Shown here: positions 16,627 to 64,000 of the stretch, one piece after another
Layout: each line of letters starts with the position of its first letter
Position numbering within the stretch: the first letter of the stretch is position 1
NCBI RefSeq assembly: GCF_032362555.1
Contig: NC_083507.1
Span: forward strand, 9,551,001 to 9,615,000
Direction: 5' to 3'
Length of the DNA: 64,000 nt
Source of the DNA: Amyelois transitella
Taxonomy: Eukaryota > Arthropoda > Insecta > Lepidoptera > Pyralidae
Notes under the pieces: model-generated
The model's database searches: none
What the model was told of the DNA's origin: nothing
The model's input: the letters and a program-made list of their open reading frames with translations, nothing else
Translations under genes and position numbers: made by a program

Positions 16627-16880
16627 TGTCGGCCTCTGTGGCTCAGCGGTAGTACGCTTGTCTGTGACACCGGAGGTCCCGGGTTCGAATCCCGGTCAAG
16701 GCATGATGAGAAAAGAACTTTTTCTGATTGTCCTGGGTCTTGGATGTTTATCTATATAAGTATTTATTATAAAAATATAGTATCGTTGAGTTAGTATCTC
16801 GTAACACAAGTTTCGAACTTACTTCGAGGCTAACTCAATCAGTGTAATTTGTCCCGTATATATTTATTTATTTATTTAGC
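16627..16880 (+). mobile_element. tRNA-derived SINE (family B), copy 1
   Basis: The head resembles a tRNA. GTGGCTCAGCGGTAG fits an A box and GGTTCGAATCCC fits a B box 30-odd nt later. The body has GTTGAGTTAGTATCTCGTAA and the tail is TATTTATTTATTTA. The same head-body-tail unit recurs at 34727-34985 (minus), 48966-49198 (plus), partly at 54262-54335 (minus) and 58438-58555 (plus). Repeated copies with shared bodies argue for a SINE, not a functional tRNA gene. Confidence 0.85.
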
Positions 16881-38865: not shown

Positions 38866-39968
38866 TCAATCCAGCCCATTTCTTCTCTTGGGGAACATCT
38901 TATCCTCCACTTGTTCCACTTTTTGTGCAACATTGGTCAGTTGTACAGATCCCTCCAAGGCGGCGGCACCACACGTCTCTGCTAACTGCTGGACACCAAG
39001 AGATACCTGACAATCACAAATAACAATATTTCATTTCTGAATGAAAATGAATGCAAAAATCACAAGATGAGTTATTTTGTTTGTTTATTCAATTATGTTG
39101 TTAATAAGCTGCTCAAAGTTCTTATAGCTTTTAAGGCATTGTGCTTTAAAAAAATAAAATATAATAGGGTCATACAATCCATCACTTATGTTAGACTTAA
39201 AAATGGTTAGTTACCGCATCAGCTTCTGCTTTAACCTCAGCCGCTGCTGCGTGCATGGTGTTTACAGTCTCCTGCAATTGGGGCACTTGCTGGATGGCTT
39301 CAGACTCCAACACAGGTGCTGCCTGAAACATTGGCAACATAAAGTTTAAGTTGCTATATTATAAATAGTATTGGTCTGAAATTTACATGAGAAGCACTAG
39401 GTACCCTAAACCTTTTGACAAATCCTATCAGTACAGAAAAACATACCTGTTTGCAACGATGCATGCATTGACAATGATGTCTAATGACTGGCTCTGCTGC
39501 AGCTACTTCTTGCATGTGCATGTTGTTTTGTTGAATCTGAAGAACAAACAAATTAACAGGATTCAAATGTTTTCTATTAATAATGAACTGTAAAATATCA
39601 CAGTGGAAACATATTCTAATTCTAATATAAGAGGCTTCTGGCATATCCAGAATAAGTAACTAACTTTATTTAACGAAATAAACATAATGACTATATCCCT
39701 TGCGGGGTAGACAGAGCCAACAGTCATCAAAAGACAAACATACATTTTCCAATAAATTTGGGTCAGTATAATTGTTCAGTTCCGTGGCCATCTGCATAGA
39801 TTCATTTAACTTCTCATGTCCCAATGTTGCATTGTTGATTGCTTGAGCTGTGTTCAACAAATTTGTTGTTGCAGAATCTCCTTGTTGCCCTTCAACGGGA
39901 ACGTTGGCCAAACCCAACTTTGCTTCTAGTTGTTCGATTCTACTTTGCAAAATCGCTATGGGGTCCAT
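38866..39968 (-). CDS. DCTN3: dynactin subunit 3 (p24)-like protein
   Basis: Four minus-strand exons, all phase 0: 39968-39744, 39536-39447, 39322-39215, 39006-38866, giving 187 residues plus TGA. Human DCTN3 is about the same length. The start is the ATG opening MDPIAILQSRIEQLEAKLG; an upstream in-frame ATG adds a hydrophobic stretch unlike the family and was rejected. Family-like features are the N-terminal coiled coil, a NNYTDPNLLEN block, a VLESEAIQQVPQLQ segment and a C-terminal helix (NVAQKVEQVEDKM). DCTN3 is part of the dynactin shoulder with p150 and dynamitin and supports dynein-driven transport in the cytoplasm. Identity is inferred from length, coiled-coil pattern and a few matching blocks. 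Exon 2 (IQQNNMHMQEVAAAEP...) matches poorly. The AATAAA at 38851-38856 is just past the stop. Confidence 0.7.
39688..39735 (+). repeat. family A fragment beside the DCTN3 exon 1 donor
   Basis: ACTATATCCCTTGCGGGGTA then GACAGAGCCAACAGTCATC. It ends within about 10 bp of the minus-strand donor at 39743-39742, so the intron's start is nearly all repeat-derived. Confidence 0.7.
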
Positions 39969-40257
39969 TTCTACAGTCTGTAAAAAAGATGTACTGTACA
40001 CTGTAACCAAAATAAAACTAATTAATTCTACAAGAAAGTAGTGCCTCCTACACAGCACAGATAAAAAAACTAAATAAATGCTTGTAAAATAAAAATGAAC
40101 ATCGAAATTTTAGAACATCACACAAAAATTCAATTTTAATTTTGACGTTTCTGTGTATTTTGTGTTTTCACTCATTGGTTTTCACAAATCCTCACAGATT
40201 ACAGCTGTATGTATTTTTTGACTGTTTGTCAAAATGCTTAATCGAAAACGAGCACTG

Positions 40258-41162: not shown

Positions 41163-42228
41163 ATGATGGATGAAGAACTAGGTGGTTTATCGGAAGGTGA
41201 TTTCGTCCTTCCCCCTATTAAATACGAGTGTAAGTGTTCTACTTATTTTAAAGCTAAATAATTATATATGAACCTTATAGTGTTTATTATGAAACATTGC
41301 AAATAAATTTTATGCTAGTCACTTTTTTAGGTTCAAATGATGCAATGTCGAATGAGTACGTTTTTCATTTTCAGATTTGGATCACACCGCTGATGTCCAG
41401 TAAGTAAACAAAGTCAGAAATATTGACATAGGAGATAATTTATTCATATTAGTACAAAAATAATTTGGTTATGAAATATACATATTAGGGACAACTTATT
41501 ATATTCGATTTAATGTGTTTTACTTAATTTGGTTATAAACTGCATGTATAATGCAGTTCAATGCTGAAAGTGAGTGGTATAATTATTTTAATAACATATT
41601 ATATTGAAGCTGTTATGTATAGCTAAATGATAGCTTTTTACCACATTATACTATTTAGTAAAACTTTAATAATAGTTACCTAGTTTGTATAGTGTGATAA
41701 GTTAAAAATATTTAAAAGTTTATTGTCTATTTTAAATTAATGTGTACAACAGTAACCATTATTTAATTTCTAAGAAGTGGTAAATAACTTACATTAATAT
41801 TATCTGAACTCAAATGAAGGCTACCTTTACATTACAGGTTACATGCATGGGGTGACAGTCTGAAGGAAGCATTTGAACAATGTGGAATGGCAATGTTCGG
41901 CTACATGACAGAACTAGAATATGTACAGATAAGGGAAGTACATTCAATAGAAGCTACAGCAGATGATATGATGGGCCTTTTGTATCACTTCCTAGATGAA
42001 TTGCTATTTTTGTTCTCTGTAGAACCATTTCTTATTTGTAAAAAGTTGGTAATTACAGAATTTAATACAGAAGAGTTTCGAATAGTCTGTAAGTGCTATG
42101 GGGAGGAATTTCAAATAGGGAAGCATCCACAGGGCACAGAAGTAAAAGCAATAACTTATTCAGCTATGCAAATTATTGATGAACCGAAAGATAATAAGTT
42201 TGAAGTGTTTGTTATTATTGATATTTGA
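41163..42228 (+). CDS. ZBTB8OS: archease (tRNA-splicing ligase activator)
   Basis: Three exons join in frame: 41163-41229, 41375-41399, 41838-42228 (483 nt, 160 residues plus TGA). The second exon is only 25 nt and encodes the heart of the archease signature, YLDHTADVQ, completed by LHAWG in exon 3. Other family blocks are FEQCGMAMFGYMTE, LLYHFLDE, GEEFQIGKHPQGTEVKAITY and the C-terminal VFVIIDI. Acidic residues of the HTAD motif and the C-terminal Asp are the metal-binding residues known in the family. Archease stimulates RTCB-type RNA ligase (guanylylation and turnover) in tRNA exon ligation and XBP1 mRNA splicing. Two tandem ATGs open the frame and the first was chosen. AATAAA follows at about 42244. 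Length and motifs match animal archease closely. Confidence 0.96.
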
Positions 42229-46106: not shown

Positions 46107-49100
46107 ATGCCGAGGGGGGTGAAGCGAGGGCCGGTGGAGGGCGAGGCCGAGGTGGTAGTTCGCGCCGGGGCGTCACCATCGAAAACCACGCTTCTGGACG
46201 ACAGCCCGAGTCAGCCCATCAGCTACCATCTGCTGGATCACGGTTATGGCGCCACGCCGCAGCACCAAATCAGGCGCGAGGCGCCCTCGGCACCGCCTAA
46301 AACATCTGAAGTAAGTAGTCTCTACATCACTATAGGTTTCTTTCAGCACCTTCAATATTTTATGATTGTATGAAATAGGGCAATAATTTTATGATAATAT
46401 TTTATCAATCTTATAATAAAATTACAAGGTAAATCAATAATAATAACCAAACCCTTGGGATATTTTATATGGATTCATTATGGGAATATAGTGTGATTAG
46501 ATGACCTTATTGGAAAATCATCAAATTTTTTTGTTGTTTTTATTCTGTATAATAAGAAATTTACTAAAATATTCTATCTTGACTTAAAATTTTCTAAACA
46601 CCCTACGTAGACCCCAGGCTCAAGAGGTAAGAAGACAACGGGGACCAACAGCTGGAGGATGATTATTTGAAATTTTTTAAGGAATTTTACTTGATATTTT
46701 TTATCAATTAATGTTAGCAGCTTGTATTCTGTGTAAATTTTAATCCAATCAAGAAGGCAATCTAAGAGTAGGGGTACATGTTCAACAGTAGACTTATGTG
46801 AATGAGATGCTGGTGGTATTAAATGGGTATTCAACAGCGGAAATATTTAATGAAACCATCCAAAGTTAACAAATGCCGAAGTAAAACACTTATTATGTCA
46901 TGTATTATTTTAGCACATTCAAGAATTTTGAGTTTCAACTGACAATAAGACTAGAGACTAGATTTTCCCCTTAATTAGCCTTGTGTCCATTGTGTATAAT
47001 TATGTCTATAACTTATGGGTTAGACAGTACCTACTGTTTCGAAAAGATTGCAAGGCCATGTTCAGTTGTATGGGCCATTAATGGAATTAAGATACAAACA
47101 GTAAGGGCTTGTTGGCCCATCACCTATATGGAGAATCCTAAATTTATTAGCCTATCCTATATAAATTTATAAATCCGGGTACCAAGTTCAAAATCTTGTT
47201 ATTTATGTAACACAAAATGTTGGCCTTCTTTTTAATTCTACTTTCCAAAATCTTGGATGATCTTTTTTCTTCACAAGTTATACAGTATGAATTACATGAT
47301 TACCTACTGATTAAACTTGTGATACTGGACATTTTTGATATTGGTGTGAAGTTCCATTTCAATACTGAGAGGTCATTGCACTCAGCTATAATATGGATTT
47401 TGGAATCTTTATCAACATTGATATAATTAAATATATAAGTTTAAATGAACATTTGATAGCAAAATAGATCATTATTATTGATATTTCACTATTAATGTGG
47501 GATGTAACTAAGTTTTATGGTTGCACCTTCCTCTTGATAAATCATAACCTCTTTATCAAAAGTAGCACAACTTCAATTCTGCTATTTTTATTAGTTGAAC
47601 CTACTGAGGAATTGACAATTGGTTGCCTACTGTTTTTTGGTAGGTAGGTATATACATAGTTTTGATGATTTGTCACTGACATATTTTATTGCCTTTTAGG
47701 TATAATGGTTGGCTATTTGGCTGAGCATACATATGCCACACTCATAAGGTAGACAGCTCATTTTGCAAATTTGCCAGATACCTATTTAGTAGTTTGTTAA
47801 ATAAATTGTCTGTTCATGACTACTTCTTCTATTGCAAAGTAGGTAGGTTGACTCTTAATACCTTAGCTCAGAATGCAATTGTGGATACGTTGTGATGAAA
47901 GAGTATTCTTTTACCCCTGACATGTCACAAGTTTGTGTTGCTATTAGCACAGATAAGAATGAACCACTAGTTGCACGCGGTTTTAACTGGTGTGTTGGTT
48001 GCAATTTTTTATTTTAATATATCAATGATTTCGTGAATTAAACGACCACTGAGCATGATTGAAATAATATAGAATAGCTAGGTTTCCCCTGTCAATAGGG
48101 TCACTATCCCACCACCACCAATGGCTCTACCAACCTTTCGGTTATAGGAATCGAATCATGAGAGTATTTTGCTCCCTAACAGCGCACCCTTTCTTGACTC
48201 CCTACAAAATCTATAGCGTCCGTTTAGTTCTGTATTACTATCCCCGTATTCTAGGAGTGAATGACGATACGCGTTACGCCTGGCGTAGCTAATAGACATG
48301 TCGTAGTATCACCGAATGATCACCCCAATCAAATTTTTAACCAATATTTAGACTAAATTATGATATCTTTCCAATAACAGTAGTACTGTCATCCCTTAAG
48401 ATTATGGGCTAACCAAATTATGATATCTTTCCAATAACAGTAGTACTGTTCATCCCTTTAGATTATGGGCTATTCGTCTATTCTGTTTTGTTCTTTTCTT
48501 TCATCAAAGCTTATTCCAGATTGCATTTTTAGGAGACGTTTCGTTAAGTTCGTTTTCCATGCTGGTCTAGTAACCTTTGGAATTTTGGGTGCAAATGAAG
48601 TGGTCTTTTCTTATTCAGTTCTACTTGAAACCACACCAAGTGTTACTGCCACTAGTGCTGCTTTACAACTATCCCTTGCACATTTATTCATTACCTATTT
48701 TATCAATTCTAATCCAATTTGTAACTATTCAGCAGAAATTATTAATGAGTATAGGTGTTTTTTTTAACAACAGGCATTATATAATAGTTAGGTAGGTACT
48801 TACCATAAGTAGATTTACTAAAAAGTAAATCGATATCGATCTGTCAAATCCGTATACGTAATTTATTAATTGGTATTATCGGTTTAAAATATGACTATGA
48901 TTGTAAAAAGGTGAAATATGTAGTAACATTCCTACATAAATTTTGTGTCTCCATTCTTCCATTCCATTTGGCCTCTGTGGCGCAGCGGTAATACGCTTGT
49001 CTGTGACATTGGCGGTCCCGGATTCGAATTCCGGTCAGGGCATAATGAGAAATGAACTTTCTCTGTTTGGTCTGGGTCTTAGATCTAAGTATTTATTATC

Positions 49101-52100: not shown

Positions 52101-55100
52101 GGTCATTGTAATATTATGAAATAGTGCTTTATGATTAGTGATGTGATGAAATAACTTATAACTTCAGTGATGGACCTGAGAAGATTAACGATGACATATT
52201 CCGTGCTAAGAGTGAGTTTTATCTATTATACGAGTCGGTACGCTAACGGAACAGTTTTAATTGCACCAACACTTATGTTTTTCTTCTCGTGACACCTACT
52301 TTGCTGGAAATCGGATGATCTCGAACTGCTCTTTGTGTCAGCTAATTACTTCACATTTAAATATGATATTGCGTTATAATTGGCTTTTATATAATCGAAA
52401 TATACAAGGTAAAAATTTCATTAGTTGTGGTGTACCATTGGCGAGTAGTAGATAAAATTGTGTCTGATATTAGATGTACGGATTCATTAGGGTTCAAATT
52501 GTTTCCTTACCGAAATTTTGATGACGATGGAGCACATTTTTTACGTTGTACAAACGGGACGAGTTTAGAATCGTTCCAGGTATCGCATACTTGCAGCTTC
52601 TTCCCGTTCAACCCTGGCGTCACTCAGGTAGGCGCCTCGGGATGATATAAAAAGTTAATTCAACTTTCATTTGTATTCGGATTTCATACTTACATTCCTG
52701 TTGTACTAGTTTGTCTACGGTGTAAGCTTTGCTTGGTGGTTTTATCTACGAATAACAAAATCAGTATTGCTGTTTATTTATACGTTGCAACGACATTGTG
52801 TTACAACACACTGCTCTTATAAATAAATTAGAAAATCAACGATTAAGCTCAATGCAATGCGGCATTACCTTTTCTGGAACAGCCACCATGCTCTTTTGAC
52901 TTCGACAAGAGAATTGAAGGGAATATCTAAACAGTGTTGTGTCTGGCAGGCAGTTAAAGCTATTGCAGGGTTTTCTTAAAAGGCATGCCAACACAGTATG
53001 TTATGACATTAACAGTAAAATAAAGATGAGTGAGACGTCACAGATTCATCCCACTTGCCTATGAGTATTTACAGCGACACCCACGGAGAATGACTTTGTT
53101 TATTGGCAAGAAGAAAAAATGTTCATATGTGAATTTCGTTGTTTCTTGTGGTTTCACCTAATTTTATTTTATCAGTAACATATATATTTTTTTTAACTAC
53201 AACGATAAATAGGTTTTCCTTATATTTATAACACCAAATACGAACTGGTACACATCATCAAATTATTCTCCGTCTGATTGATTGTTATCTATTGGTTTAT
53301 GTTACTGCGCGATTATAAGAGGGAGTAAAGCGCCGGGCAAAAAGAGAATGTTATAAGATGGCCACCATTTCAAGTAAATCATTTGAGTATTCAATTTACC
53401 ATAGTTGCTCTTCTAAAAATTCCGGATCATGTGTGATCGAACGATTATGTATTAGTTGTGCGTGTTAATAGAAGCTCGGGAATATTATTCAGCACGATAT
53501 TAAAATCATGCTCGACATGAAGTGATATCTTTAGAAAGTTTCGAATTTAAATCGCCTTGTTGTTGAACATCTAGTTGCCCGAATTTATTGGTTTCCTCAT
53601 GATGTTTTCTCCCACCGTAAAAGCATTGACACATCATCGCCCTTCTGGTGTTTGTCTCGGCCATGATTTTTCCACGAAGGAGCCAAGGCTTTGTGACCTC
53701 GATCCTGGAGATGGTAAGAAAGGGCAATACATGAAGTGACACTGTCAGCAGAGGAATCCAACCTAACTTCGATCAATCGACCTTATGGGTTCGTAATTCT
53801 TTAGATATTTTGAAAAATAAGATATATTAATGTTTAAAATAATTACAGGCGGTAAAAAGAAGACTGAACTTGAGTGAGAGCAGTTCAGGGAGTCAGGGGC
53901 ATGTGGTGCCGATGAAGGCGGACTTCAAGACGCCTAAGCAGAAACGCGTGAAGGTCCTCACGCCCTGCAGCCGACCGTCCAGTTCTATGAAAAAATACAC
54001 CGAACGTTCCAGGTACATATTTGCACAAGGTAATTTCATCATTAATAAGTACAATATACGAATAAGTATAAATATGAAGAATATCGAAGGAAGCTTCGAC
54101 ATTGACAGCTCGTTTTACGGGATGGCAAAATCCTCTGACAAGAATTTCAGGACATAAAATGGGCTAGTGCCAAACAAAGTTTGAGACTTGTGATTTGGCA
54201 TAATAACTCAGCGATACGAATGAAAACTAATTATATACGCTGATAGTATAACATTCGGGACCCAGACCAATAAGAAAAAGTTAGTTTTTCATCATGACCT
54301 GATAGGGGTTCGAACCCAGGATTTATTTCTGGGAATGGGCTCATTATGGTTGAACATTAAGGTATACTTACTAAAAAAATATTTTTTTTTTAGTAAGTAT
54401 ACCTGAAAATTTACCTTAAAGTGCACTTTAAATGTGCCGGTTTCCTGACAATGTTTTTTTTACATCGGTAGAACATTGGTTAGCATTCCAACTATAACAT
54501 AGTCAATGGTTTTCTGACTCGGATACTTTTACCTCCCGTTCAGGGTCTTAACTTCGGTCTTAACGACATAGCCACCTACTTATATTTAGTGGTCAACTGC
54601 ACCGTACTTGTTGTTTCAGGTTTGACACATCATTAGGTTTACTCACAAAAAAGTTCGTCGCACTGCTGAAGTCGTCGCCCAATGGAGTCCTCGACTTGAA
54701 CATAGCGGCGGAGCATCTTTCGGTCCAAAAACGACGTATATACGACATCACTAATGTATTAGAGGGTATAGGAATATTAGAGAAGAGGTCCAAAAATAAT
54801 ATACAATGGAAATATGGTTAGTTCAATTATTTGTTTTTTATTTAAGATTTGTTAGTATCATGGCTTGATAATGAGGTGAACTCACACCTATCAAGACTTT
54901 ATTTTTATCCCTAAGGACCTCCTCAGGTAGAGCCTAGTCTTTTCCCTATTGGAAATTATGTTTGAATATATAATATGGACTGCAAAGATTGCGGAGGTCC
55001 TGCAGTCACTTTAGGTACAACTTTATTTACCTAATCCAGGATTATGGTCAAAGACTTAATCTTCTCCAGAGAGCTAGAACTAACGCCAGGAGAAAATATT

Positions 55101-58100
55101 ATTTAGACTGTCTTTTGTTGATGATATCAAATGCACTTTAACGTTAGAACAAAAGCAATATAATATATTCTACATACTCCCCTTGTTGAATTGAATTATG
55201 AATCAATAACTTTCGTAATAGGGAAAACCAGGTGGGGATGTCGTTTTGCCTGGTTTTAAGCATTAATCATTTGAAAGTTTTTACATACCATTAACTTCAA
55301 GAAGCTTTTTGCCATAATCCTAATCCTGCGTTTGACATAATAATCCAAGCTGGATTTGGTAGTGTAGGTACTTAACCCTTCTTTGCATGATGATGGAAAT
55401 TTCAATCATAACATTTAGTGAAGAAAAAAAGGTACTCAAAAACTGTAAACTTTAAATTTGTTGTTCCTGGCAACTTTATAAATGACTATTGCATACAACA
55501 AAACCCTAGTACCAGTCTACTGGAAGAAGAATTACAATAAAAAAAAAGAAAGGTCACTTCGGTGTAAATTTCCCAAATGTAAAGGCTATTCCACAATTTC
55601 GTGTAATCAATGTGGAGTTAATTTGTGCTTGAATAAAATAATAATTGTTTTTTAAATTATCATTTAGAATATAGGAGAATAAGTAAACAATATCTTTTGA
55701 CTTATTTAGTACTGAGCTATATATGTAACAATGCATAATGATGTAAATTTTCATCACTGTTTTTTAAATAATTCAAATTCTTATTTATACTAGGATTTTT
55801 TTAAATATTTTTCCTTTAATCTAGAGCATTAATTACATCAACCTGATTTATTTTAACAAAATAGGAAAAATCATGCAATTAAGGGTTAATTTTGAAAAGT
55901 TAAGTCATGGAGATCGGATCTTTCTGTGTATCTCACTAAGCTACTCATCATCATGCTTGTAGGCGAAACCCGGGCTCATTTTTAGGAAAAAAATCAGTAT
56001 AGACGCCTGTAGGAACGCATTCAATGAAAATGGTCTCTGCGAGCAGCGGTCAGGTCTAAAATTGCATTGTGACGGTCTAAAAAGACGCCGAATATATCCT
56101 GCGCTGGGACGGATCAATTGTGTCGAATCCTTGAAAGGTCCATATTTACAATGTGAAATAGTTCATAAAGCAAAGTTCCGGCAGGGGTGGGCAGCGGCGG
56201 CGACAGCGGCTGCGGCGTGGTGGCGGACGAGTGGCGCGCGCGGCGGCTGCGGCGCGAGTGCCGCGCGCTGGCGGCCCGCGAGGCGCGCGTGGGCCGCGCC
56301 GTGGCGGCCGCCGAGCGCGCGCTGGGCTCGCTGTCGGCCGAGCACGACGGGCTCGCCTACATTACGTATGCGGACCTCCGCTCTATCAAAGACTTTAGGA
56401 ATCAAACCGTTATACCTATCAAAGCGCCGCCGGACACGATACTCAGGGTAAGTCTATTTCAAAAATATCATTTCATTAATACATATAATATGCAGTTGGG
56501 CTCACGCGGTTGCTTTGTGGTGGGAATGCCGTGCGAATTGCGCGATGGCCGTCGATGAATGAGTTTGGGATAAGATAACTAACGATTTTGAGGATAACGA
56601 AATTTGCATATTCATACAACTGAATGTTTAACTATGTTCATTACGATAAGATTCTTCTGAAATCCTCGCATTCGGATGTAATCGAGATTTACTTTAGAAT
56701 GATATGATGTCTAAAAACATGAAGTCTATTCATCCAGTTTTGCAATCTTGATGTAGGTATGATTTTTGCAAATAATATTTTACCTTGTTTGCAGGTACCT
56801 CATCCCGATGAAAAGGGTTATATGTTCTATGTTAAGTCTAAATCTGGTGAAATAGAAGTCTTCCTATGTCCTAAGGAACGACCTCCTTCGCCATCACCTC
56901 GTAAGTATATTTCTTACCATACCACTGTGGCATAAATAATTTTGATTAGAAACTTTGTAACTCAAAATATCTGTAATATATTAACAGTGTTTGAAGTACT
57001 ACTAGATTAATAAGATGACATCAAACCTCAACATCCTACTACTACAAGTTTTTTCTAACAATTCAATGGAATCACTAAATTATGTATGTCGTACAGACAA
57101 CAGACTGTAATGGATACATTAAAAGGTTTTATTAAATCCTTCAAAAGCGAACTTGTACAAAATTGTAATTTTTTACTTTTAATAAACATAGTCTTAGAAC
57201 AAATTAAAATTTTGTAAAATACTTGTTTCAGCTACGGAACTCCTTCCGGATCCCATATCGGAAGACAACAAGGCGCTGCTGGCGCCGCTCATAGCTCAAA
57301 TGCAGCACATGCCTTCAAGTTCTATTACTGCAGACTATACGTGAGTTTTAGTTTTTACATACATATGATCACGTCGTATCGCTGAGAGCCAGATCCAAGA
57401 ATCTCGAAAACGCCAAGCTTAAAAGGCCAAGATTCAAATAGAGACACGATTGCCTAGAAGAATCCCATGTTATTAGCCTTTCCTTCGATACTTCGAACTT
57501 TTAAACGGGAAGAAAAGCAGTCGACACTTTTCATCGCTACTAAACCAGCAAGGCAGCTTTCTTTGTACCGTATTTAAAATAGACCACTTTCTTTTTCTTG
57601 GAACTTAGGTTAATTTTTGTATTCAGCAGTTCACTGCTGTACTTAAAAAATGCCTGTATGGAAAGTAATTTTGTATTTGTCAAGATTTTATACTTTTTCC
57701 AGGACTCCTATAAAACGAGAACCCGTTGAATGCCCGCCAAGTAGTAGCTCGTCGGCCACGTGGAGCGCCTCAGCGGCGGAACACACCCCCCAACAGGAGT
57801 TACATACGCCGCAACACGACCTCAGTACGCCCGATGGTTAGTATACACCTTGCGTAGCTTTATAACAAACATCCTGGTCTATTATTCTACTAAAAAAGGA
57901 TACATACTAGTTAACACAGATGCTGACATTATTGAATCTCGCAAAAAATTCGTTGCGGTCAGCCGTAGTGAGAGTGTCATTTGTATTTCTCTAGTCTGTC
58001 CATGACTTCTATCAAGTCAGAAACGGTTGCAGTAGTTGTAAACACTGCAACACGACTTCAGCACGGCCGACATACCTTACTGAGACTATCTGGGAAGGAT

Positions 58101-61100
58101 TTGGAGTCGTATCTTTCACAATCAAACAAGAATCGTAAGGAAGAAAGTGGCCGTAGTTGCGTATGACGTTTTTATACAATGTTTGACGAGAAGATGATGA
58201 ACTGTTTTCTCTGTTTTATTTGTTTTGTATGATTATCAAATTGACCGATGTGTTCCTCAGCGTTCACGGCGCGGTGTCGCCTGCGCAACGCGCTGATCGC
58301 GGAGAGCGACGACTTCGCGCCCACCATGGGCGGCGGCCGCTTCCAGCTGCAGACCGAGGACCAGGAGCAAGGTATGGAACACAACCATCACGCAGATTGA
58401 GGTCAAACGCCTCTCATATTCAAAATAAAAACAATCATAGTCGGCTTACGTGGCGAAATGGTAATGTGAACAAAGTACCAGTGTCGATCTCAGGTCATGA
58501 TGAGAAACATTGTGGTCTCCCTGGGTCATAGATGCTTATCTTTGCATTCTAAAATTAAGGTTATCAAATTACAAGCACATATTTTCAAACATAGAGAAAC
58601 ACATGCAGAGAACACATTGTACACACATTAACTCGCTAGGTGGTCGTTTTGTTTAAAATTTCCACAAGAATCTGAAGTCAGATTATAACAAAAAAAAAGT
58701 AATATAAACCGTCATACACACTGGACAAAGGTTTAATGTCTACTCTATACCGCACAAAATGTTTTATAAGCATATTTAAAAAATAATCATTATAAATAAA
58801 TGTTTAGTAAGTAGCGTGCACATCAGCAAACGAAGATGATCAGAAGAAGTGCTCGTTTTGTGGCTAGAACTCGAACTGTGACTTGTGTTGGATTCCACAT
58901 CACAGTCAGAGTTCTAGCTTCACGACGCTGCTTTCCAACATCGACAGAAGATGCGGAAGAAATTATATGAACCTTTAATTTACTTCTTCTAGTAGGTATT
59001 TGAAGATAGTGAATGCTCGGTAGTCACCATTTTGATTATTAACAAAATCGCTCTGGTTTTCAGCAATTGTTGATGATTTTAAAATTTATTTTTACATTAT
59101 GATTATTCTTCTATTCTCAAAATTGTCAGGTTTGTATTCGGCTTTTATTTTTTCTAATATCAAATTTAATTAATTTGTAAGTCACAAAGTTGTGGCATTT
59201 GCTATCAAGTGAATGAGATAACAGTAAAGCTTTAATATTTAATTTGATACCTGCAGCCATGGTTTTTGGTTTCAAGGTTTCATAAGCACAATTTTAATCA
59301 AATTCAAGGTGGCGGCTGAACCTGTCACTAATCTTCAACCTATTTGAAAATGTATACTTATGGTTAGTGAAGAGCGAATAAATCTGACTTATTAGTAGCG
59401 AAGCGACTGTTTAATATCGCGGGTCAGATTTCTCTGCTGCTCACGGATACACTTCATCCCAATGACAAAATTTTTGTTGAAGACTTTTTTATCACTGTCT
59501 TAGAAATTTGGGTTGGATACGGATTTTTGCTTTAGCTATTGGGACGGAGTGTATATTAATGGTGTTATATCAAAATGTGCATGCTTTTCATCCTTCATTT
59601 CATTGTGTTTTATCATCAAGGCTTCCAACTAACCTAAAGTGAGTGTGACTTGTCCTCAGACAAGTTATATGATGTTCATATAGTACATGGACTATTGTCG
59701 TTTTATCTTCAATTTCTAATAATGTGTTAAGGTTTTTCTATAATTTTGTTTTGGTCTATCTGTACTAAAAGTAACTATTTAAATGATTAATTAGAAAAAT
59801 TGTGACTGAGTCAAGAGGTTAACGCATTATTATATAATGCAAAGGTTTTCATAGCATAATCTTTTCTGGAATACATAGAAATTCAGCTTTAAAAAATAAT
59901 ACAATGCAGATCCATACGTCCACTGGCCTTTTATTTTACTGGTTTATTTGTGAATATAATTTAATTATATATATACAACTTAGTCATTTGCAGCGAGCTA
60001 AAGTTTCATTTCACTGTCAAACTTACACAAAAGGCCTTCAAGCTCTGAATTTATATATTTTTATTGCACTGTCAAACTGCAAAGAATAGAAAGAACGATG
60101 GTCCTTTTTTAACGTACCAAAAGAAAGAACAAAAGTCCTTTCAGCTTGACATAATGTTCTTGACTCAATCAACAAAAAAAAAAAACAAAAGTTCTTTTTT
60201 ATTATTTCATAACGAGCCTTGCATGTAAAAAACCATTGTACATACACTCGTCTCCGCGTCGGGCCGCGGCGGCTGCGGCGAGCTGGATCTCGTGCCGCTG
60301 CAGTGCCTCGTGTAGCACCATGGGATTCAGCTCACCGCGGCGCCACTAACATCTACTAATACCACGCCACCATCGATCGCCCATATCTAACGCGCACTAA
60401 CTGTTTTTTTTATGTGACAGCACTTTGGAAACGCTAAAAGGTTGATTCCGTAATTTGTCCCGTTTTCGCGCCGTGTGGTTTCCGTCATTTTAGGATGACT
60501 CTTGGTCAGACGGGCCAATTAAGGATCATAGTCAAATGACGTAGAGCCTGGGTGCGTCTTCTTATTCGTCTTCTTTCGTTTTAAATATATGTACATAATC
60601 TTGCTCCTCACTATAGAATGGGTTGCGTCTTCTCTGGAGAGGAATCCGGGGGTTATTTTTATATAAAAATACGAAGAGCTCACCTGGGAACCATATTCCT
60701 GGGAGTACCAAATAAGCCCGTTACGGAATCAGCCTCTTATTATTCTATAATGGATTATGTGTATCTCTTAAGGACAACCAGCGACGTGCAAATTTAATGT
60801 AATTTAGAAGATTTCCATGGCATTGTTTCATTTGTCCATGCACGCCACTGAATACTAGTTAATCAATTGATAAAGAAATTTCACCACACTGCTAAATGTA
60901 ACGCGCACTAACTGGCACTGGTCTTGGATTCTTTCTATCGGTATATATGGTCCGTGCGTGTAAGTAAAAATATTTTCAAAATGATTCAGTTAGTGGTAGA
61001 AAAGCTACGCTTTTGGAACAATCTTAATTTTTTATTAATGACAAAATAACAAAAAATTAAAATGTTTAAAAGGGGGAAAAATTCTTGTGTAAATTTTCTA

Positions 61101-62075
61101 ACATTAACATTTCTGTGGTTCGCTTTTCTGTGGTCGCACTCCAGTGTGGTGAAATCCGTGTAACATTTACATCCGGGGGCCAGAATTTCACGCATGACGA
61201 CGTTTTTATCGCGCGATAAACTATCGCTGTCCCGTTTCATGTCATAATAAAAAGTGAAACCGCGATAGTTTAAATCGCCCGACAAAAACGTCGTCGTGCG
61301 TGCCATGCTAGCCCCGCTGGTGTGCTATTCTTGAATTTGGTGACTGGCTACAAATCGGAGAGAATAACTTTATTAGATTAATCCAAATGACGAATACGAT
61401 TGTTAACAGCAATCTTTAAAATTTGTTTGAACCAAAATTACTCTTAACGATTTGAATCGCCGATGTTTTTGTAAAGATTATTTAACTGTTGACATACTAT
61501 TGGAAGTTATCCTGACTTTTTAAATGAAAGTATAAATTAATCAGTATATGAAAAATGTCTTGTGAGTGTTAGTTTTAAATATGATGCATATTTTGTACGG
61601 AAATTATTGTAACGAAAATGTTTTCGTAATTATTAGTTTTAAATTTACAATGTATTCAGCATGTGCTTATGATAAATTTTTACTTTTGCATATAATTGGG
61701 CCCCAAAGAATTGTTTTATAAAATAAATATTGTTTTATATAACTTGAAAAACAGTTTCGTTCTGTATATGTAACTATTTTACAAGTTCAGATTTCTGTGA
61801 ACAAAGCTGGACCAAAACATCTTTGAACGCTTATATAAGCTTATAGGAATAGTCTATAAAAATGGTTTCCTCCGCCCGAAGCTTCAACTTCTCTGGCGGA
61901 GTACTAGACAAATGTTAACTCTTTCCATCACAACTTTTCAGAACCTATGGAGTTGCCGTTCCTAGCACTGGAGCCCCCCATGTCGGCGACGGACTACGGC
62001 TTCTGCCTCGACCACGACGAGGGCCTCTCGGAGCTGTTCGATTTCGAGTTCTACTCTCACGACCAGAAGGCCTAA
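46107..62075 (+). CDS. E2f1: E2F1-type cell-cycle transcription factor
   Basis: Nine exons in frame: 46107-46310, 53849-54012, 54620-54816, 56185-56447, 56795-56900, 57232-57340, 57703-57836, 58261-58371, 61942-62075 (1422 nt, 473 residues plus TAA). Exon 2 opens with the cyclin A/CDK2-binding motif AVKRRLNL (69-76). The winged-helix DNA-binding domain (about 120-188) includes [20 protein letters not shown] (161-180). A heptad-like dimerisation helix (about 197-240) precedes the marked box (about 241-310; [26 protein letters not shown]). The C-terminus has the retinoblastoma-binding core [18 protein letters not shown] (447-464). With a DP partner, such proteins activate S-phase genes and are restrained by RB-family proteins in the nucleus. 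The first intron is 7.5 kb and may hold an alternative promoter. The last intron holds two microRNA hairpins. Confidence 0.97.
46980..47170 (+). repeat. diverged family A copy in E2F intron 1
   Basis: GTCTATAACTTATGGGTTAG, GGCCATGTTCAGTTGTATGG and GGCCCATCACCTATATGGAG align block by block with family A at lower identity, so this is an older copy. Confidence 0.6.
48355..48474. repeat. 60-bp tandem duplication
   Basis: Two consecutive near-identical units (48355-48414 and 48415-48474) share ATTATGATATCTTTCCAATA and ACAGTAGTACTGT, differing by small substitutions and indels. Confidence 0.85.
48966..49198 (+). mobile_element. tRNA-derived SINE (family B), copy 3
   Basis: GGCCTCTGTGGCGCAGCGGT head, GGATTCGAATTCC B box, GTTGAGTTAGTATCTCGTAA body and TATTTATTATTTATT tail, within E2F intron 1. 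Confidence 0.85.
52170..52211 (+). CDS. E2f1: candidate alternative first coding exon of E2F
   Basis: ATG 52170 opens 14 codons ([14 protein letters not shown]) ending on a codon boundary at a strong donor, AGA|GTGAGT. Exon 53849 starts at phase 0 with AVKRRLNL, so the two join in frame to give an E2F lacking the normal 68-residue N-terminus. Mammalian E2F3b is made the same way from an intronic promoter. GC-richer DNA at 51.9-52.06 kb could be that promoter. There is no direct expression evidence. Confidence 0.4.
53540..53710 (-). repeat. family C-related fragment, minus strand
   Basis: GGTTTCCTCATGATGTTTTC and CATTGACACATCATCGCCC match the reverse of family C blocks. It ends about 140 bp before E2F exon 53849. 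Confidence 0.5.
54262..54335 (-). repeat. family B SINE fragment
   Basis: CCCAGACCAATAAGAAAAAG and GGTTCGAACCCAGGA match the reverse-complement B-box end of the SINE. Confidence 0.65.
54360..54404. repeat. short perfect hairpin in an E2F intron
   Basis: AGGTATACTTACTAAAAAAA pairs with TTTTTTTAGTAAGTATACCT; the loop is only a few A/T bases. Confidence 0.7.
54970..55100 (+). repeat. family C repeat, 3' portion
   Basis: GCAAAGATTGCGGAGGTCCT, CCAGGATTATGGTCAAAG and CTCCAGAGAG...CGCCAGGAGAAA match the 3' part of family C. Confidence 0.65.
57358..57490 (+). repeat. diverged family A fragment in an E2F intron
   Basis: ATGATCACGTCGTATCGCTG, AAGATTCAAATAGAGACACG and AGAAGAATCCCATGTTATTA follow the family A order with deletions. 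Confidence 0.6.
58438..58555 (+). repeat. diverged family B SINE in the last E2F intron
   Basis: GTCGGCTTACGTGGCGAAAT, GGTCATGATGAGAAACATTG and CCTGGGTCATAGATGCTTAT track the SINE head and body, but the B box is mutated (GTCGATCTC), so it is probably transcriptionally dead. Confidence 0.6.
58850..58932 (+). ncRNA. mir-11: miR-11 precursor in the last E2F intron
   Basis: The 3' arm 58898-58920 reads CATCACAGTCAGAGTTCTAG + CTT. From memory, Drosophila miR-11 is the same except for two substitutions past the seed. The 5' arm (58860-58881) pairs over about 20 bp with a two-base internal mismatch and an 18-nt terminal loop, which is normal pre-miRNA geometry. The seed ATCACAG puts it in the miR-2/6/11/13/308 group, which in flies targets pro-apoptotic genes. 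It lies on the sense strand of E2F, so it should be co-transcribed with the host. Confidence 0.92.
60268..60345 (+). ncRNA. mir-998: miR-998 precursor in the last E2F intron
   Basis: The 3' arm 60313-60333 starts TAGCACCATGGGATTCAGCT. From memory, fly miR-998 differs by one base. The 5' arm GAGCTGGATCTCGTGCCGCT (60280-60299) pairs along the full mature length with only a two-base mismatch and a few G-T pairs, and the loop is about 12 nt. The seed AGCACCA is that of the miR-29/285/998 group. It sits about 1.4 kb after miR-11 in the same intron and strand. A GC-rich island (60249-60350) in AT-rich intron marks it out. Confidence 0.92.
61183..61316. mobile_element. family D palindromic MITE, copy 3
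   Basis: GCATGACGACGTTTTTATCG and CGACAAAAACGTCGTCGTGC are inverted; CGCGCGATAAACTATCG pairs with CGATAGTTTAAATCG. It ends in GCCATGCTAGCCCCGCTGG, like the 27.9-kb copy. Confidence 0.75.
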
Positions 62076-62587
62076 GTCGCAAGCGCACTCGCCTCGAATG
62101 CGCATTTGACGGTACCTGTAGGGCGAGGGACGGATACGTGTATTTTATTTATGATCACTGCTGTCCGGGACTGTACGCTTTTTTAAACGTTACAGCACAT
62201 GCTGATAAATTACTTTTGTTATTGATTTTTTTAGAAGTGACCCGAGAAAATTTGGTCCAAATTAAAAAAAAAGTACAATCGTTTGGAAATTACTTTCGTT
62301 TAGCGGTCGTGATGTCAAACCCGTTAAATGTAACAATAATGTTACAATAACAGAAGGCAATTTATATGTGTAAGATTGTGAAGGTGTAGCTGTGGCATTG
62401 TTTCGTTCTCAACGTTCTGTCAGATCACTGTTTTTTATATTGATGTGCCGAGGTAGTCACGCGGTGTAGAATGCATGCAGAAAGACAGGGTGGGTCACAG
62501 CACTATGGACAAATACGATGGATGAAAACTCGGCACCGTCTGAATACGCTTATTTGTATTATACATATTGTCTATAATTATAATAAA
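62076..62587 (+). promoter_or_regulatory. E2f1: E2F 3' UTR and polyadenylation signal
   Basis: Begins after the TAA at 62073-62075. AATAAA at 62582-62587 is the first canonical signal. No exact TGTANATA Pumilio site was found in it. Confidence 0.6.
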
Positions 62588-62599
62588 ATAATCTGCCAC

Positions 62600-64000
62600 A
62601 ATGTTGAGAATGATTTCTGATCTACAGATGGCTTGACAATATACATTGTTACTCACAGCATAATGGATTTTGATAATTAATGTGTTAGTTATAAAAATTG
62701 ATTATGTTGCGGACTTATGTTAATCAAAACCTCGGTTGGTTTTATCCTATTCGATCTTCCTCTATTCACTACTTTCCTTCTGTTGTAAGTTGAATTATTT
62801 TCGTAATTTACTAGAGGTATGTTGTTAAATCTGTAGTTATGTTCATTTGGAATTAACGGTGAGTTAGAGTAGATTTCAATTGCTGTAACTTAACATTGTT
62901 CTAACTCCAGCATTGTGTGTGCATCAAGTTAAATCGAAAATATAAAAAAATATTGAGCAATTTTAAGGTGCAATGAATTATTAGATTTGTGTTACGGTTG
63001 TCTACAAAAGTAGTAGCCCGATTATTTATATTTGAATTTTATTTTATTGAACAACTTCCAAGTAGAAATGGAAAAAACGCCTTGCATTTCATGTAATGCC
63101 GTGCATTTTGCCCATTTCTAGTTGAGGATCATTAGTGCAGTTTTTTTTGAGACATACGCACATGTAGCATTATGTTATGCGTGAGAATGGTTAAAATTTA
63201 CACCCTTTGAAATAGGAATAGTCATTAAAGATTGGTTGTGGCTATTCTGCGTACGCTACAGTTTGGTGAGTGTGCTGTCATTGAGATGCACGCACATTTC
63301 ATTTCTTTCCACCTCAATCTATTGGACTATGTACAATTGTACACTCGCTGTTTATGCATACGGATAAACAGGATTTTTATTAAACGTCAGTTATTTTATT
63401 TCAATATTATATGATTAAAAATATTTTACAACTTTTTGTCAAGTCACTCTTCATTGAGTTAATGTTGCGTACTGAAATAAGAACTTACCTCATATAAAAC
63501 TAAATCCAAGCGCCGTCCGAGCGACAGTATTCCGACCGAGAAAGTATTAGGGTGCTATTCCATTGAGTTGAGTGCTTTGCGCATAAAAATATAAAAAAAA
63601 ATTAAACAACGTTCGTGCGCATTGAGATGCGTTTTAGCTTATTATCAGTGGAAGCAGTCAGGCAGCGATAACTTGACAAGGTTAGCTGATTTCGTAGCAT
63701 AACTTGACATGTAATCGCAATTGGTGGAAAAGCATACCTACATAATAAACTTAAGTTTTCAGCTTTAAGTTCAAAAATAATTATTATGTGACAGAGATAT
63801 AATGTCTCTGTTGCGCGAATTAAATCGAATTAAAGTCTTGTTCAAATGACATAATCACGCATTAACATGAGTCTTCTAGTGGCGTCTATGGAGGCAAAAA
63901 GGTAATTTTATTTAATGATACAAGACGTGTTTCGAAAAGATTAACTTTCAGCGCTCTTTTTTGCGCACAGTTTTAAAATATATTCAGCGTCGGAGATTAG
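62600..64000. other. right flank, no supported gene
   Basis: AT-rich DNA without a recognisable product. A 35-nt open segment from ATG 63867 to a possible donor (AAAAAG|GTAATT) at 63901 might start a neighbouring gene, but it is too short to judge. Confidence 0.4.

Follow-up and report, generated by a model that had tools for sequence, protein, structure and literature searches.

The DNA considered here, from the moth Amyelois transitella, raises the question of whether an E2F gene that carries microRNAs in its own intron is a peculiarity of Drosophila or an arrangement older than the split between flies and moths. Two microRNAs, mir-11 and mir-998, occupy the last intron of the Drosophila gene dE2f1 and are co-transcribed with it (PMC4109884), and an earlier note on the moth DNA had claimed a miR-11 hairpin within the last intron of a lepidopteran E2F gene. 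Here we describe this locus in the window, i.e. the whole stretch of 64,000 nucleotides that was analysed, and argue that it very probably corresponds, in Lepidoptera, to the dE2f1 locus of Drosophila and was passed down from the ancestor common to flies and moths.

Structure of the host gene

The host is an E2F gene of the forward strand whose coding sequence, located by tblastn with the deposited A. transitella E2F protein (P0001), runs from its start methionine to its stop codon in nine coding pieces (Table 1). Splice sites were determined for exons 3 to 9, exons 1 and 2 being placed from tblastn limits; for exon 2, the tblastn piece (53846-54031, residues 68-129 of P0001 at 90%) runs past the exon itself. 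Translated, the exons spliced from the window give 350 amino acids, which show 100% identity to the deposited protein and 89% identity to a relative from Plodia interpunctella. This full agreement confirms the last splice junction, and tblastn placed the exons flanking the last intron at 58260-58370 and 61941-62072. The intron bounds proposed in the earlier note therefore stand. The intron interrupts the reading frame in phase 1, following the residues ...QTEDQEQ.

Pfam searches recovered the winged helix (PF02319, E2F_TDP, 2.7e-28 on the ORF 54564-54818) and the CC-MB domain (PF16421, E2F_CC-MB, 5e-14 on the ORF 56169-56555), the end of the latter in exon 5 being matched as a fragment at 4.6e-5 (23.9 bits, under the cut-off of 33.9). 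The last exon encodes a 20-residue motif that we take to be Rb-binding, and whose pattern is present in 102 of the 120 relatives retained (the best 120 of 4612 matches); searched alone against the PDB, this C-terminal piece gave no match. Best matches of the CC-MB part in the PDB were to E2F1 (2aze, 6.1e-12), followed by E2F4 (2.3e-6) and E2F5 (0.0018), and the Bombyx relative of the host protein is named E2F1 isoform X1. The host gene thus appears E2F1-like by its CC-MB match and by the Bombyx name, its winged helix being nearer E2F-4, the nearest PDB match of that domain (1cf7). Among the matches listed, lepidopteran relatives have been deposited as E2F1, E2F2, E2F4, E2F5 and E2F6, so that database names do not reveal the E2F class.

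Elsewhere in the window are an ORF that lies upstream of the E2F gene and has an Archease-family match (41818-42225, forward strand, Pfam 3e-37), an ORF with a Dynactin p22 match (39666-40109, reverse strand, Pfam 5.5e-7) and a tRNA-His(GTG) gene (16632-16703, forward strand).

Table 1. Coding exons of the A. transitella E2F gene, its last intron and the microRNA features within it (positions in the window).
Feature	Position	Strand	Basis
E2F coding exon 1 (start Met)	46107-46310	+	tblastn limits; P0001 residues 1-68 at 100%
E2F coding exon 2	53846-54012	+	end estimated from where the next exon resumes the protein
E2F exon 3, winged-helix DNA-binding domain	54620-54816	+	Pfam E2F_TDP; PDB 1cf7 E2F-4
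E2F exon 4, CC-MB domain	56185-56447	+	Pfam E2F_CC-MB; splice sites
E2F exon 5, end of CC-MB domain	56795-56900	+	Pfam E2F_CC-MB fragment; splice sites
E2F exon 6	57232-57340	+	splice sites, tblastn
E2F exon 7	57703-57836	+	splice sites, tblastn
E2F exon 8, directly 5' of the miRNA-bearing intron	58261-58371	+	splice sites, tblastn
Last E2F intron, phase 1, 3570 bases, holding both hairpins	58372-61941	+	GT..AG; flanking exons match P0001
mir-11 precursor hairpin	58856-58925	+	Rfam RF00813, 71.8 bits, E 1.2e-13
Predicted mature miR-11-3p, seed ATCACAG	58898-58919	+	match to published mature miRNAs
mir-998 precursor hairpin	60265-60347	+	Rfam RF03419, 51.9 bits, E 7.5e-9
Predicted mature miR-998-3p, seed AGCACCA	60313-60333	+	match to published mature miRNAs
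E2F last coding exon, putative Rb-binding motif, stop 62073-62075	61942-62075	+	splice sites, tblastn

Two microRNA precursors in the last intron

The miR-11 hairpin claimed for the sense strand of the last E2F intron was recovered by the Rfam search on the same strand as the host, with a score (71.8 bits) that exceeds the curated cut-off of RF00813 (45 bits). The opposite strand of the hairpin reached 40.1 bits, as expected of a nearly self-complementary hairpin. The folding check suggested for 58840-58940 gave an energy of -42.1 kcal/mol and a z of -5.03, none of 200 shuffles being equally stable. At one stem pair, both sides depart from the Rfam consensus and the pairing is kept, as indicated by the ':' sign of the alignment, which we take to mark a both-sided change that keeps pairing; read against the published Aedes arms, this pair is G-U in Aedes and U-A in the moth.

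The predicted mature arm, CATCACAGTCAGAGTTCTAGCT, is identical at 22 of 22 positions to the Bombyx form of miR-11-3p, as implied from the notation of PMC5291412, in which the Grapholita miR-11 is given as bmo-miR-11-3p with one change (A to G at position 11). Identity to the published arms of Grapholita (21/22), Diabrotica (21/22), Aedes (21/23) and Bactrocera (20/22) amounts to 20-21 matches in each of these four other forms, in agreement with the near-exact arm previously described. The count column of the small-RNA table for the moth G. molesta lists 27,252 for miR-11-3p (PMC5291412).

The same intron harbours, on the same strand, a second microRNA, mir-998, which was absent from the earlier note. 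Its score for RF03419 (E 7.5e-9 for the region) falls 0.1 below the curated cut-off of 52 bits, which is a detection limit and not a biological feature; an Rfam scan with curated cut-offs applied omits it. The stretch 60240-60345 folds at -58.7 kcal/mol with a z of -4.10, again with 0 of 200 shuffles equally stable, and the predicted mature miR-998-3p matches the published arms of Diabrotica at 21/21, Aedes at 20/21, Bactrocera at 20/21 and Daphnia at 18/23 positions. Under its Bombyx name, miR-998 is also listed in the Grapholita small-RNA data (PMC5291412).

On the forward strand, mir-11 lies upstream and mir-998 downstream, both sense to E2F, with predicted mature 5' ends 1415 bases apart. 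Past both predicted 3p ends, a CNNC motif, a motif linked to Drosha, starts at a distance of 17 bases, such a motif being expected between +16 and +18 with a probability of about 0.1 in this intron.

Genome-wide search and other candidates

Genome-wide Rfam searches covered the moth's own 327-Mb genome (33 contigs). At E<=0.001, RF00813 matched this locus only, on both strands of the one hairpin, among the best 60 of 25,973 first-look candidates that were scored; for RF03419, mir-998 (E 1.4e-7) was the sole match at this threshold among the best 60 of 4014 candidates scored. Within 58100-62200, no other Rfam miRNA than mir-11 and mir-998 was found among the 12 matches at E<=5, the remaining matches being the opposite strands of the two hairpins, cross-matches of related miRNA families to these hairpins, or matches that scored far under cut-off. 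Mature patterns of mir-11 and mir-998 gave 0 matches each in viral_contigs. In genome_contigs, the mir-11 pattern had one match, in a Woesearchaeota record, which was discarded: its fold is weak (-16.6 kcal/mol for 100 bases), it matched no miRNA family, and a pattern of 19 fixed bases should turn up about 2 times by chance in 257 Gb searched on both strands.

The intron also contains two inverted-repeat stretches, 60435-60739 (19 nt arms at 89%, starting 88 bases past the mir-998 match) and 61176-61315 (42 nt arms at 83%), both resembling small non-autonomous DNA transposons. The strongest other hairpin of a sliding fold, near 61202, was considered as a further miRNA and rejected, as it corresponds to the second of these repeats. 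The E2F site TTTSGCGC was likewise rejected as a sign of autoregulation: its one occurrence in the intron (60464), among four in the window, is near chance expectation and sits between the inverted repeats 60435-60453 and 60721-60739, which look like transposon ends. Self-targeting of E2F was searched for on the forward strand of 53000-64000, exon 1 lying outside this stretch, and zero 7-base sites were found for miR-11 or miR-998; 6-base sites numbered two for miR-11 (53432 and 54189) and one for miR-998 (63551).

Putative role of the pair in moths

In the fly, rpr and hid are among the death genes repressed by miR-11, and EGFR signalling rises through the repression of dCbl by miR-998, the authors leaving open the directness of the action on dCbl (PMC4109884). 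Under the mechanism that we propose, the E2F1-like gene would be transcribed together with miR-11 and miR-998, both being cut from its last intron, so that at each transcription of E2F the intron would release the two miRNAs and part of the E2F output would be damped. In flies, the outputs damped are death genes such as rpr and hid (by miR-11) and Cbl (by miR-998), whose repression raises EGFR survival signalling, and such wiring forms what we term an incoherent feed-forward loop. By analogy with the fly, we infer co-transcription, processing and an anti-apoptotic role in the moth, and a damping role of the pair in moths seems more likely than not. Transferring the apoptosis brake of the fly to the moth, as the earlier note did, appears reasonable as a hypothesis; to our knowledge, clear counterparts of rpr and hid may be lacking in moths.

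An alternative accepts the same locus and the same ancestry and denies any functional tie to E2F output, the miRNAs being kept by inertia and perhaps transcribed from an intronic promoter of their own. It would fit the functions reviewed for lepidopteran miR-998, which are unrelated to E2F, namely the repression of ABCC2 in three moths (PMC11257933) and, in Galleria, a fall on Listeria infection with a link to optineurin (PMC10161253). It is at odds, however, with the sense orientation that both hairpins keep, in the fly as in the moth, within the last intron of an E2F gene, and with the co-transcription of the fly miRNAs with their host (PMC4109884), and we hold it to be unlikely, though worth keeping in mind beside the damping role that we favour.

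Origin and age of the arrangement

The likeness between the fly and moth introns is one of host, rank (last) and strand, the fly side being taken from PMC4109884, and on these points the agreement with Drosophila put forward earlier is confirmed. That two miRNAs agree in all three respects between the species is much better explained by descent than by repeated insertion, and a single ancestral locus established before the fly-moth split is far likelier. The presence of mir-998 in the same intron makes this argument much stronger than that of the earlier note, whose claim of a linkage predating the split is thus supported and strengthened. An independent entry of miR-11 and miR-998 into E2F introns in flies and in moths, to which an intron likeness based on rank and strand and not on codon position leaves some room, would require two miRNAs to land twice in an intron of the same rank and on the same strand, and the order from mir-11 to mir-998 is common to two dipterans, Aedes and Bactrocera; we consider it highly improbable. 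Nor is it credible to any appreciable degree that the hairpins are inverted repeats arisen by chance or from repeats, and not miRNA genes, as the other inverted repeats of the intron, some like small transposons, might suggest, against which stand the family-specific Rfam scores, the conserved mature arms, the shuffle z values (-5.0 and -4.1) and the fact that neither family had a further match at E<=0.001 when its best 60 candidates were scored.

Inheritance from the fly-moth ancestor is hence the origin that we retain, and the ancient insect age proposed in the earlier note holds back to this ancestor only. A deeper age is not supported by the reports of miR-998 from a thrips, a beetle and Daphnia, which give no host gene for it in the text consulted. 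As a tentative extension, the last E2F intron might have limited E2F output through two miRNAs from a time before flies and moths diverged, perhaps even before Holometabola arose, mir-998 being possibly the older resident as it is reported in thrips and Daphnia too; each burst of E2F could then free two conserved brakes, and E2F activity in moths could also be tied to miR-998 targets such as ABCC2.

What was a Drosophila curiosity, an E2F gene whose killing output is limited by two miRNAs of its own intron, becomes an arrangement very likely persisting since the fly-moth ancestor, and its being kept for so long is suggestive of selection on the tie between the host and its miRNAs. This link becomes testable in silkworm or other moths, and the locus supplies a host gene for miR-998, which has been studied in moths for ABCC2 repression. 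No statement of a lepidopteran E2F as host of mir-11 or mir-998 was found in the literature searched, subscription papers falling mostly outside this search and the arrangement being readily visible to users of miRBase or of a genome browser. The fly dE2f1 arrangement was already known; the moth E2F as host of the pair was not found stated before.

Comparison with known systems

In the Grapholita small-RNA set (PMC5291412), the miR-11 arm is one base off that of A. transitella and miR-998 is present under its Bombyx name, the accessible text giving no host gene for either. The pairs of Aedes aegypti (PMC2797818) and Bactrocera dorsalis (PMC4593211) resemble that of the moth in both miRNAs, in their order, mir-11 being upstream of mir-998, and in their location on one strand, and differ in spacing, which is under 300 bp in Aedes and about 2.4 kb in Bactrocera, against the 1415 bases measured here between mature 5' ends; E2F has 0 occurrences in the main text of these two reports. 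Published reports of mir-11 clusters are not uniform, as in Anopheles a miRNA named mir-285 was reported within 1 kb of mir-11, in an arrangement said to be unconserved in Aedes (PMC4112208). The Drosophila dE2f1 locus (PMC4109884) belongs to another insect order, and its function was demonstrated in the fly, whereas that of the moth locus is proposed by analogy; its miRNAs are co-transcribed with their host, those of the moth being co-directional with theirs. With these differences, the fly and moth loci have in common an E2F host, the last intron of that host and both miRNA families.
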